From Polyangiaceae bacterium (GTDB lineage Bacteria > Myxococcota_A > Polyangia > Polyangiales > Polyangiaceae): 64,000 nt of DNA. The notes beneath the pieces are model-generated. The model was not told where the DNA came from. It ran no database searches and saw nothing but the letters and a program-made list of their open reading frames with translations. Location of the stretch: the NCBI GenBank assembly GCA_013214025.1, contig JABSRN010000008.1, positions 1-64,000 of the forward strand, in the 5' to 3' direction. Both the position numbers and the translations under genes were made by a program. Positions 37,046-40,801 of this stretch are shown in pieces (position 1 is the stretch's first letter; each line of letters opens with the position of its first letter).

Positions 37046-38140
37046 TCAGCCGTGGGGCAGATCTGGGAAGGCTGCCGCCACGTCGCGGTTTATGAGCTGG
37101 TGATGACGTGTGTTCAGCGCGGCAGCGTGGCCTGGGCTGATCTTGATAAACGCATCGAGCCCACTGGCTGCCAGTCGTCGCACGTACGGCAGGGTTGCAT
37201 TGCATAGGGCGTGGGTGCTCGTTCGACCGACCGCTCCTGGCATGTTGGCGACGCAATAATGCAGGACGTCGTCCTGAACGAACACCGGATCGCTGTGAGT
37301 GGTAGGCCGCGAGTGCTCTGAGCAGCCCCCTTGGTCGATGCAGACATCCACCAATACGCTACCGGGCTTCATCTTCATGATCTGTTGAGCTCCGAGTAGT
37401 TTGGGGGCCTCTCTGCCAGGCAATAACACAGCTCCAATGACCAAATCAGCTTGGCTGATGTGTAGATCGAGAGCATGGGGGTCGGAGAACACGGTCGTAA
37501 CATTGGGGGGAAGCTGCTGGGAGAGCGTGCGAAGCGTGACGAGATCGATGTCCATGATGACCACTTCCGCGCCTATGCCTGCAGCGATCATCGCGGCGTT
37601 GCTTCCCACAACGCCTCCGCCGAGCACCACCACTCGGCCTCTCTCCACACCGGCCACACCGGCCAGTAGGATGCCTCGGCCTCCTCGGGGCTGCTCGAGA
37701 TACGTGGCTCCCGCCTGGATGGACATGCGCCCGGCGATTTCGCTCATGGGCGTGAGCAGCGGCAGGGTTCCGGCTGCGTCACGCAATGTTTCGTAGGCGA
37801 TGGCAGTGAACCCAGAATTCAAGCAGCTTTCGGTCAGGGCCAACGAACCGGCGAAGTGAAAGTAGCCAAATACGATTTGTTCGGGGCTCAAGAGCTGAAT
37901 CTCGTCTTCTTGAGGCTCTTTGACTTTTACGATTAGCTCGGCGCGTTCAAATAGGGCGTTCCGATTGACGATAGTGGCGCCCACGGATTCGTAAGCCTCG
38001 TCCGAAAAGCCACTGCCGATCCCCGCGCCGCGTTCGACTAGCACGTAGTGGCCATCTCGCCCCAACATGTCGGCTCCTACGGGGCGCAGGGCTATCCGGT
38101 ACTCGTCGGGTTTCGTTTCTTTGGGGACGCCCACGATCAT
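37046..38140 (-). CDS. ald: Alanine dehydrogenase
   Basis: 364 residues from ATG 38140; a longer frame to 38260 gives an unconserved 40-residue leader that overlaps the next gene. N-terminal MIVGVPKETKPDEYRIAL and GAGIGSGFSDEAY are family hallmarks. Lys74-type KVKEP, His96-type FGYFHFAGS, the NAD-binding VVVLGGGVVGSNA, and the late NMPGAVGRTST are all present, so substrate and cofactor sites look intact. It catalyses reversible NAD-dependent deamination of L-alanine to pyruvate and ammonium. It lies downstream of the reductase-dioxygenase fusion on the same strand (65-base gap), suggesting shared use in amino acid breakdown. Confidence 0.93.
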   Translation of the reverse strand: MIVGVPKETKPDEYRIALRPVGADMLGRDGHYVLVERGAGIGSGFSDEAYESVGATIVNRNALFERAELIVKVKEPQEDEIQLLSPEQIVFGYFHFAGSLALTESCLNSGFTAIAYETLRDAAGTLPLLTPMSEIAGRMSIQAGATYLEQPRGGRGILLAGVAGVERGRVVVLGGGVVGSNAAMIAAGIGAEVVIMDIDLVTLRTLSQQLPPNVTTVFSDPHALDLHISQADLVIGAVLLPGREAPKLLGAQQIMKMKPGSVLVDVCIDQGGCSEHSRPTTHSDPVFVQDDVLHYCVANMPGAVGRTSTHALCNATLPYVRRLAASGLDAFIKISPGHAAALNTRHHQLINRDVAAAFPDLPHG

Positions 38141-38205
38141 GGTGACCGTTAAGCGTAGGCTGTTTCCAGGATTCGTCCAGCGCGGGAGGGCGCGCTCCGT
38201 GTTCG

Positions 38206-40647
38206 TTATGGGGCGTTGGGGTCGAATCTTGCGGGGAAGCCCGCTCTGCGTTTGAGCCACCCGGAGTCTCGGTTCTCCGCCCGCCGGGCCCAGTCGGATT
38301 GGGCAAATGGCAAGCTCGACTCAAACTGGTAGAAACACTGCGATTGGGACGAAATGTTCTTGGTGGCGTCGGATTTTTCGTCGGTCGCGCCAATGGCTTG
38401 AGCGTAACTTTCGGGACTCGGTCCGTGCGCGGTCATGGCCGGGGAGAGCCAGGGTGCGGCGGCTGTGTCTTGCCCCGCTCTCAGGATGATCCCGTTGTAT
38501 TCAGTCGCCGCGTTCCGGTGGAAGTATGGCAATCGAAGAGTGTGCTCGGTGTTCTCCCTACGGGTTGGGAACACCACCAAGGCTCCGATCGCCGTGCCAT
38601 CGAGGCGACGACAGGTTAACAGAGTGTAAATGGAAGGGTCTGGGTGATCGAAACTGACGTTACTGACCGGGCAAAAATTATCCAGCGCGTATTTGTAGGG
38701 GCAAAGGTTGCCGTGCCACGCGACGACGTCGAAGGGGGAATGCGCCTGTGTCGATTCAAATAGTTGACCGCCATACTTGGTGACGATTTGGTAGCGGGGG
38801 CATACGCGATCTTCGAACTGGGCCACCGGCGCTTCGAAGTGACGTTCGTCCGCCAGCCCGTTGCTACCCATAGGGCCTCTGTCCGGGAGCCGGAAGGAAG
38901 TCTGGAAGATTTCAAAAATTGAGCCGAAAGCGGCCGCCGCGATCAGTTCGACGCGGATTCGGATGCCTCGCGGGATCAGGCAAATTTCCCCTGGGGACAG
39001 GGAGAAGCTGCCCATCTCCGTATGAATGGTCATGGCTCCCAGTTCGGGGACAATGAGTAACTCGCCATCGGCACTGGTGAAGGCGCGGTCCGTCATGCTG
39101 GTGTTCGCAGCAAAGCGATGAATCGCGTAGCCTGGGCTGCTACCATTGGTGCCGTGCCCGCCCATGGTGACGAGGCCATCCACAAAGTCGGCTGACGTTG
39201 ATAGCGGTAGGTTCTTCCACCGGACAAGACTCGGATCGACCTTCCGTCCTCCCGACGCCATACCCGCGTGTTGCAGGCGTATGAATTCCGCGGCGTTTAC
39301 GCTCGGGCGAATGCGATAGAGCCAGCTTCTTTTGCTGGACTGCCGGGGAGCGCTGAATGCGGTTGTGTTGATTTGCTCGGTGTATAAGCCGAAAGGCACA
39401 TGCCGAGGATTATTTTGATCGCGTGGCAATGCGCCCACGATGGCTTCGGATTCGTGATGGGCGCCAAAGCCTCTTAGGGTCTTCTCCGGCAGAACCATGT
39501 TGGGCGTGGCGGGAGGGCGGGGGAAACTGGAAATCGCAGAGCTGTCGTTGGGGGGCAACACGCTATGGGAGCGGCTGGACGCGTCGGCGGGTCGTCGCCC
39601 GTGAAACGCGGCAATCAATAATTCGCTCAGGTTGTCAGGGTCGACGACTCGCGGGCTAGGGATTTTCGTCTGAAGTGCCAGCTGGACCACTCGTTCCAAA
39701 TCATCGGGTCGCAGACCCAGCGATCTCAGATCCGTGGGGGCATGCACCGATTCCGCGAGATCGAATAGACAGGCGGCAGGATCGTCAACACCGAGGGCGC
39801 GTCCAATCGCCTCGGTTGCATCCGGCGCGGCGTCTCGGAAAAAGTCCACCACATAGGGGAGGACGACTGTATGAGTCTGCGAATGTGGGGTGCCAAAACT
39901 TCCGCCTAGTACGTGGCAGAGTCGGTGGTGGAGGCCCAACACGGTCGTACTCAGACATGAGCCCGCCAAACAGGCCCCGAACAGCGCCAGTTCCCGAACA
40001 TGCAATTCAGATGTACGCTCCGGTAGCTGGGAAATACTGGAGCTGAGGACGGCGATGGCCTCCTCCGCGATCAGCGGAGTGATGGGATCGCGTTGACTCC
40101 CATAGAGGGCGCTCACCGCGTGGGCAGTCGCGTTGAAGAGGCTTGAGATGCTGGCCGCCAGCGGCAGTTCCAGCGTGAGTTCGGGATCGTATATCACCAG
40201 CGAGGGTCGGACTCGTTCGTCTCGCCCGGTCTGTTTGCGCCCGTCGTCAGAAATCCCGTACACCGCCGTCATTTCTGAGCCGGCGTAGGTGGTGGGGATA
40301 GCTACGAACTGCAGGTCTCGAGTGAGAGCTATCGCTTTGCCGAGACCGGTGGCTGAGCCGCCGCCAATGGTGACGATACAGTCGGCGTCCACACGCTGGA
40401 CTTCCTTACGCCCCGCTTCAACGGCGCTTCTGGGCACATGTTCCCGGGCGATGTCCAGCAAGCCCACGCAGACCGTCCCCAGCTGGGCGACGACCTTAGA
40501 CGCCATTTCTTGCCGACCCGGTGTAGTGACTACGACCACACGGGTTGCCTTGAGCCTCGCCAGATGGTTATTCAAGTGTGCCAGCGCTCCGCTTCCGAAT
40601 ACGACACGGCTCGGAAGTGAAGACGTCTCAAACTGCTGGCTAGCCAT
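38206..40647 (-). CDS. Fusion: maleylacetate reductase domain plus homogentisate 1,2-dioxygenase domain
   Basis: 813 residues from ATG 40647 (GGTGGAG just upstream). Residues 1-355 match maleylacetate reductase of the iron-ADH superfamily: NAD site GGGSATGLGKAIAL (95-108), PTTYAGSEMT (118-127) and metal/active-site region LHHRLCHVLGG (239-249) with THTVVLPYV. A 35-residue Ser/Pro linker follows. Residues 390-790 match homogentisate 1,2-dioxygenase: GFGAHHESEAIVGALP, PFGLYTEQINTTAFSAPR, FDHPDPSIYTLLT (666-678) and iron ligands His710 (FHRN), Glu716 and His741 (AHGP). A His six positions before the last ligand in known enzymes (human LH-xxxxx-H) is Ser here. Both halves look catalytically complete otherwise. 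The joint reaction is inferred: ring opening followed by reduction of the maleyl double bond. Confidence 0.85.
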   Translation of the reverse strand: MASQQFETSSLPSRVVFGSGALAHLNNHLARLKATRVVVVTTPGRQEMASKVVAQLGTVCVGLLDIAREHVPRSAVEAGRKEVQRVDADCIVTIGGGSATGLGKAIALTRDLQFVAIPTTYAGSEMTAVYGISDDGRKQTGRDERVRPSLVIYDPELTLELPLAASISSLFNATAHAVSALYGSQRDPITPLIAEEAIAVLSSSISQLPERTSELHVRELALFGACLAGSCLSTTVLGLHHRLCHVLGGSFGTPHSQTHTVVLPYVVDFFRDAAPDATEAIGRALGVDDPAACLFDLAESVHAPTDLRSLGLRPDDLERVVQLALQTKIPSPRVVDPDNLSELLIAAFHGRRPADASSRSHSVLPPNDSSAISSFPRPPATPNMVLPEKTLRGFGAHHESEAIVGALPRDQNNPRHVPFGLYTEQINTTAFSAPRQSSKRSWLYRIRPSVNAAEFIRLQHAGMASGGRKVDPSLVRWKNLPLSTSADFVDGLVTMGGHGTNGSSPGYAIHRFAANTSMTDRAFTSADGELLIVPELGAMTIHTEMGSFSLSPGEICLIPRGIRIRVELIAAAAFGSIFEIFQTSFRLPDRGPMGSNGLADERHFEAPVAQFEDRVCPRYQIVTKYGGQLFESTQAHSPFDVVAWHGNLCPYKYALDNFCPVSNVSFDHPDPSIYTLLTCRRLDGTAIGALVVFPTRRENTEHTLRLPYFHRNAATEYNGIILRAGQDTAAAPWLSPAMTAHGPSPESYAQAIGATDEKSDATKNISSQSQCFYQFESSLPFAQSDWARRAENRDSGWLKRRAGFPARFDPNAP

Positions 40648-40801
40648 TGGCTCCACCAGCTTTCCACGATTGCTGCCCGAGCAAAAGAGCTTGTGGGGCG
40701 GGCCCGCTTCGGCGTGTTCTCTCACCTATGTGAGCGGCAACGGACAGTTCCGTATGGAAGGTGTCGGTTCTTCCCGGTTCTGCCGCTGTTTGCGCTAGAA
40801 T

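Follow-up and report, generated by a model that had tools for sequence, protein, structure and literature searches.

A maleylacetate reductase–homogentisate dioxygenase-like fusion from a Polyangiaceae bacterium and its possible part in a bacterial route for 2-substituted hydroquinones

The described route that most resembles the gene analyzed here is the methoxyhydroquinone pathway of A. niger. As set out in the pathway account of PMC8336404, the homogentisate dioxygenase (HGD) homologue MhdA converts methoxyhydroquinone into 4-hydroxy-6-methoxy-6-oxohexa-2,4-dienoate, the authors' candidate reductase for the next step is a maleylacetate reductase (MAR) homologue that is expected to yield monomethyl 3-oxoadipate, and 3-oxoadipate should then be formed by the carboxylesterase OmeA, whose gene lies beside mhdA. 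The relevant part of PMC13094099 also has MAR serving the methoxyhydroquinone route and cites an analogous bacterial pathway as described; the methoxyhydroquinone dioxygenase of P. chrysosporium and Pseudomonas SG-MS2 are cited there and in PMC12607616. Likened by described activities, the A. niger route and a three-domain bacterial fusion presented below both combine an HGD-family cleaver, a MAR-family reductase and a carboxylesterase. However, the former is fungal and uses separate proteins, whereas the bacterial fusion links the domains in a single polypeptide as MAR–(esterase)–HGD, and the copy that we started from has two of the three domains and lacks the esterase.

Each half of this copy also has well-known relatives. 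HmgA (TIGR01015) shares with it the bicupin fold, a 2-His-1-carboxylate Fe site and about 40% identity, but our protein falls below the equivalog cut-off, lacks equivalents of His365 and Tyr350, is fused to MAR and is not encoded beside HPPD or FAH. MARs of the GraC, PcpE and LinF kind have the same fold, are about 40% identical to our protein and have His172 and the HH..CH motif in common with it; our protein differs from them in its Arg for Lys238 and in carrying a ring-cleaving domain on the same chain. The lin/pcp and p-nitrophenol pathways resemble our proposal in that hydroquinone cleavage is followed by MAR, but their enzymes are unfused, and we take their dioxygenases to lie outside of the HGD family.

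The window analyzed is a stretch of 64,000 nucleotides from a Polyangiaceae bacterium (contig JABSRN010000008.1, positions 1 to 64,000). A first-pass annotation had described a MAR joined to an HGD by a Ser/Pro linker, and this fusion of a MAR and an HGD-family half is genuine, as judged from a single open frame, Pfam matches, predicted folds and recurrence in other genomes (Table 1). The minus-strand frame is open throughout 38206-40725, with no stop between the halves. The ATG at 40647, with GGTGGAG just upstream, is the likely start and gives 813 residues. Pfam places Fe-ADH/ADH_Fe_C at residues 12-347 and HgmA_N/HgmA_C at 391-805, all far above cut-off. The AlphaFold model (mean pLDDT 84.7, pTM 0.53) has two confident domains that flank the linker, which is disordered. 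On structure comparison of this model, the nearest solved fold to the reductase half is the MAR 3w5s (Z 52.2, rmsd 1.3, 343 residues), and that to the dioxygenase half is human HGD 1ey2 (Z 48.7, rmsd 2.7, 400 residues).

Table 1. Position and properties of the fused gene and its parts in the window
Feature	Position	Strand	Remarks
Whole fused gene, MAR–HGD	38206..40647	minus	813 aa; frame open to 40725
MAR-like domain, residues 1-357	39577..40647	minus	LHHRLCH motif; PcpE Lys238 equivalent is Arg, His172 equivalent kept
Ser/Pro-rich linker, residues 356-387	39487..39582	minus	pLDDT < 50; Abhydrolase_2 here in three-domain relatives
HGD-like bicupin domain, residues 390-813	38206..39480	minus	Fe ligands present, as is a His292 equivalent; no equivalent of His365 or Tyr350

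Two other readings of the architecture were ruled out. The idea of two separate in-frame genes is at odds with the inner ATG at 39498, where the dioxygenase half would start and where the upstream sequence CCGCCCTCCCGCCACGCCCAAC contains no purine-rich ribosome-binding stretch, and with the recurrence of the fusion in many genomes. An assembly accident is excluded since the same domain order occurs in one frame across other genera and families. At the 3' end of the gene, an alanine dehydrogenase frame (37046-38260) overlaps the fused gene only with its upstream GTG start. Its match to the alanine dehydrogenase family starts at residue 41 (about 38140), which makes an overlap of the two genes improbable.

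Looking for the fusion in related genomes, as had been proposed, proved productive. BLAST on open frames detected a one-frame fusion in 20 of 183 genomes of the order, of which ten have the MAR–HGD form (G000, G009, G043, G050, G071, G128, G135, G136, G139 and G141) and ten carry a further domain in the middle (G044, G070, G075, G098, G099, G126, G131, G149, G150 and G177). This additional domain is an α/β-hydrolase (Pfam PF02230, Abhydrolase_2) in which, by eye on the alignment, the Ser of GFSQG is kept in 24/24 rows, Asp in 23/23 and His in 22/22 of the rows that cover them. A sample of 377 genomes from the phylum yielded eight further confirmed three-domain cases (L108-L111 and L113-L116). 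MAR and the HGD-like protein are encoded as two adjacent genes in G006; in G302 and G437 of the phylum sample they are again unfused neighbours. Excluded from the 20 is G058, where two fusion pieces with a shared stretch lie at the ends of two contigs, probably a three-domain form split between them. L112 was also left out of the fusion count, its MAR–hydrolase and HGD being in different overlapping frames, and at the short-flank loci L097, L098, L100 and L102 the absence of a domain carries no weight.

A separate scan of genome contigs returned only canonical HGDs and one paralogue from LB400. MAR and HGD were joined in one place in none of the best 25 of 483 matching plasmid records, and of three plasmid neighbourhoods inspected, the two annotated Sphingobium ones are ordinary tyrosine clusters and the one from Cupriavidus carries no annotation. 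All parts of the fusion are of known kinds, while the open-licence papers that we searched hold no description of the MAR–HGD fusion, the three-domain form or the dioxygenase subfamily.

The dioxygenase half matches human and P. putida HGD by sequence with 39-40% identity to true HGDs and scores about 425 bits (422.7-425.1) against TIGR01015, below the equivalog cut-off of 510.75. The Fe ligands His335, Glu341 and His371 (human numbering) are H, E and H in the window, and 38, 38 and 37 of the 38 MAR-linked rows in a 46-row alignment retain them. The picture is different at two other positions. The equivalent of His365 is His in 8/8 canonical rows but in 0/38 MAR-linked ones, which have Thr (31) or Ser (7, as in the window), and the equivalent of Tyr350 is Tyr in 7/8 canonical rows and 0/38 MAR-linked rows. 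The pertinent part of PMC4019311 gives proposed catalytic roles to both outer-shell residues His292 and His365 of human HGD, and the window keeps an equivalent of the former. Consequently, the earlier statement that nearly all catalytic residues are present holds for the Fe ligands, HGD His292 and MAR His172, but not for MAR Lys238, HGD His365 and Tyr350. The window copy also has an unusual shortened active-site loop, and PDB entry 9pz4 is likewise without the canonical HGD loop. In a maximum likelihood tree of 47 rows, the 38 MAR-linked dioxygenases (fused, adjacent and hydrolase-fused ones plus a few with short flanks or without MAR) form one branch against the 8 canonical HGDs with support 99/95. 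The window's dioxygenase sits there on a long branch, its position within the clade being left unsettled by the tree. Retention of the Fe ligands together with loss of the His365 and Tyr350 equivalents argues, on the alignment, that this clade keeps its reaction centre and has a different predicted substrate wall.

There is some variation among these dioxygenases. For example, the His292 equivalent is Trp (AWWGN) in the three-domain fusion L088:7261-10482 and Gln in L098. Additionally, L048 and L089 (from G038 and G180) encode HGD-like proteins that belong to the MAR-linked clade, with no MAR found beside them; in L048 the next frame upstream contains a flavin-reductase-like domain.

The reductase half matches the solved MARs 3jzd (E=2e-85), 3hl0 and 3w5s in a sequence search. 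It has about 40% identity to MARs and contains the HH..CH motif. Both His172 and Lys238 of PcpE are essential according to the section of PMC5741723 that deals with them. The first is kept in 41/41 MAR rows of our alignment and the second in 28/41; the window has Arg at the latter position, which keeps the charge, as does L077, another intact two-domain member. The window's MAR half forms a long branch in the MAR tree. One three-domain group frequently lacks Lys238, which, as a guess, could mean a substrate with one charged end fewer, such as a methyl ester.

The opening of aromatic rings yields reactive products that do not last long. The layout of the fusion implies, as the first-pass annotation had also noted, that a ring-opened product is passed to a C=C reductase, and the altered active site and separate clade make it likely, on sequence grounds, that the fused enzyme works outside of the tyrosine/homogentisate pathway by cleavage followed by reduction. 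In our proposal, the C-terminal domain would be a para-diol dioxygenase acting on a 2-substituted hydroquinone and giving a beta-keto product of the maleyl type, whose C=C bond the N-terminal MAR domain of the same polypeptide would reduce with NAD(P)H. Domain for domain, the three-domain bacterial fusion corresponds to the three fungal activities, and the family therefore would act on 2-substituted hydroquinones, among which methoxyhydroquinone, derived from vanillate and guaiacyl lignin units, is the leading candidate; that it in particular is the natural substrate we regard as tentative, at somewhat less than an even chance. Methoxyhydroquinone would be cleaved to 4-hydroxy-6-methoxy-6-oxohexa-2,4-dienoate and this reduced to monomethyl 3-oxoadipate, the ester then being split into 3-oxoadipate and methanol, a step that would fall to the fused esterase in the three-domain forms and to a separately encoded one in the window's genome. 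The two-domain member of the window would perform the first two steps, with the fusion handing the unstable cleavage product straight on (putative channelling). The fusion, its conservation, the domains, the altered site and the tyrosine cluster discussed below are computed, and the three-step chemistry is that of the fungal literature; the substrate, the direction and the channelling we infer.

Taken as a whole, a bacterial family of mega-enzymes that on one chain cleave methoxyhydroquinone, reduce the product by MAR and de-esterify it to 3-oxoadipate and methanol, with the window as an esterase-less variant, is a possible explanation that we put forward with reserve. Counting against it are several features of the window copy, namely the missing esterase, the shortened loop, Arg in place of Lys238 and long branches in both trees. 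There is also no match to pcaJ/scoB (the 3-oxoacid CoA-transferase B subunit) in the window's genome and no aromatic neighbour of the kinds searched within the window, and to these are added the retention of Lys238 in just 28/41 rows and the two genomes with a single HGD that are described below. If true, the family would give bacteria an equivalent of the guaiacyl-lignin route of fungi, and the window form would have lost, or never had, the esterase. It would suggest a guaiacyl lignin route in a bacterial group for which the literature that we searched describes none. A cleaving, a reducing and often a de-esterifying enzyme on a single chain would constitute a natural pathway fusion, and the three-domain members make it testable in a single expression construct. 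The fusion also sets apart a subfamily whose members probably go by the wrong name, “homogentisate dioxygenases”, in databases and for which there is a sequence test, Ser/Thr-Pro replacing the SLH motif.

Gene neighbourhoods were counted at 28 fusion loci, ten with the two-domain form and 18 with three domains. An AMP-forming CoA ligase occurs near 13/28, a GST near 9/28, a citryl-CoA-lyase-like protein near 8/28, a small VOC protein near 6/28 and pirin near 4/28. A XylR-type query matched at 4/28, the match at L074 being partial, and Pfam confirmed XylR_N (sigma-54 activator) in proteins of L075, L088 and L052. BLAST with a single LB400 query detected no vanillate-hydroxylase-like FAD monooxygenase near the fusions. 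At L086 and L113, which belong to different families, the three-domain fusion is directly followed by 3-oxoacid CoA-transferase A and B, an arrangement that by sequence would fit 3-oxoadipate and equally acetoacetate. As a separate observation, the CoA ligase, citryl-CoA-lyase-like, GST and small VOC set recurs beside three-domain fusions (L079:1401-5256, L080, L085, L109 and others).

The substrate may also be a different para-diol. Hydroquinone or a chloro-, methyl- or hydroxy-hydroquinone may be cleaved to maleylacetate or an analogue that MAR then reduces, with the hydrolase of the relatives removing another group or acting on lactones. The MAR half is indeed nearest to true MARs, the GSTs beside the fusions recall LinD/PcpC, and the middle hydrolase has a weak MhqD match (27 bits). 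Para-diol cleavage of hydroxyquinol would, moreover, yield maleylacetate directly. We nevertheless consider this reading unlikely, as the esterase is left without an explanation for hydroxyquinol or hydroquinone, and a semialdehyde dehydrogenase was not noticed in passing among the neighbours listed. Furthermore, the LinE/PcpA dioxygenases are, we assume, of the VOC fold and not cupins.

The first-pass annotation itself had favored homogentisate as substrate and a bypass of the isomerase and FAH. Spelled out, homogentisate would be opened to maleylacetoacetate, MAR would reduce this to succinylacetoacetate, and C-C hydrolysis of the latter (by the hydrolase in three-domain forms) would give succinate and acetoacetate. 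The HGD fold and the identity to true HGDs are in its favor, and the CoA-transferase encoded next to two of the three-domain fusions might act on acetoacetate. However, homogentisate is not supported as substrate by a clade of its own that has lost His365 and Tyr350 in 38/38, nor by the surroundings, with HPPD and FAH near 0/28 fusion loci; the context control for the latter is a biased one since L054, L103 and L105 were picked for their tyrosine genes. A bypass finds as little support in the window's own genome, where contig C84, a different contig from that of the fusion, has a cluster of PAH, an FAH-like protein, maiA, HPPD and a short HGD-like protein. Its maiA scores 254.8 bits (cut-off 171) and its HPPD 269 bits, just below the cut-off of 277, while the short HGD-like protein (L054:2518-3738, ~400 aa) has 54 bits to TIGR01015 and is assigned as HGD by context. 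An ordinary hmgA-maiA-fahA set, together with silence of the fused gene, had been named as the combination that would speak against the bypass, and the set is there as FAH-like, maiA and short HGD-like genes on C84. Nor are most fusion genomes devoid of maiA, as the bypass had led one to expect. Among the 22 genomes that encode MAR and HGD fused or as an adjacent pair, HPPD is present in 20, a maiA match in 20 (19 above cut-off) and a second HGD-like gene in 18. The pathway's presence in the window's genome and in most fusion genomes also rules out that the fusion replaces a missing tyrosine pathway.

Two genomes point the other way. G071 and G075 have HPPD, MAI and FAH with the fused HGD as their sole HGD, and homogentisate activity of the fused protein is possible there. 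When lists were compared by eye, HPPD without another HGD occurred in 6 of the 114 order genomes with HPPD, 2/19 with the fusion and 4/95 without it, so the argument from G071 and G075 is weak, the same state being found in four non-fusion genomes. We therefore regard the bypass as improbable. The short HGD type is of interest in its own right; it adjoins HPPD in many members of the order, and the C84 protein as query matches 114/183 order genomes at E<=1e-8, canonical and fused HGDs being among the matches. This seems to be a common kind of HGD that tends to go unrecognised.

Equally improbable is that the window copy is a divergent, perhaps inactive relic kept by chance, for the long branches, the shorter loop, the replacement of Lys238 by Arg and the lack of both aromatic neighbours in the window and a pcaJ match in the genome are set against a frame open across 2.4 kb, two folds intact with high confidence, a full set of Fe ligands and MAR histidines, and the same Arg in the intact two-domain member L077.

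Two further loci carry related genes in other settings. At L117:4338-8231 (G466), an aldehyde-dehydrogenase-like protein (by eye), CoA-transferase A/B and a lone MAR stand in a row that resembles a hydroquinone-type lower pathway. An HGD paralogue on chromosome 3 of Paraburkholderia xenovorans LB400 (L037:2071-7266) has His for Tyr350; its gene is grouped with those for an FAD monooxygenase, an alpha/beta hydrolase and an amidohydrolase, and together they are perhaps another non-homogentisate ring-cleavage cluster.
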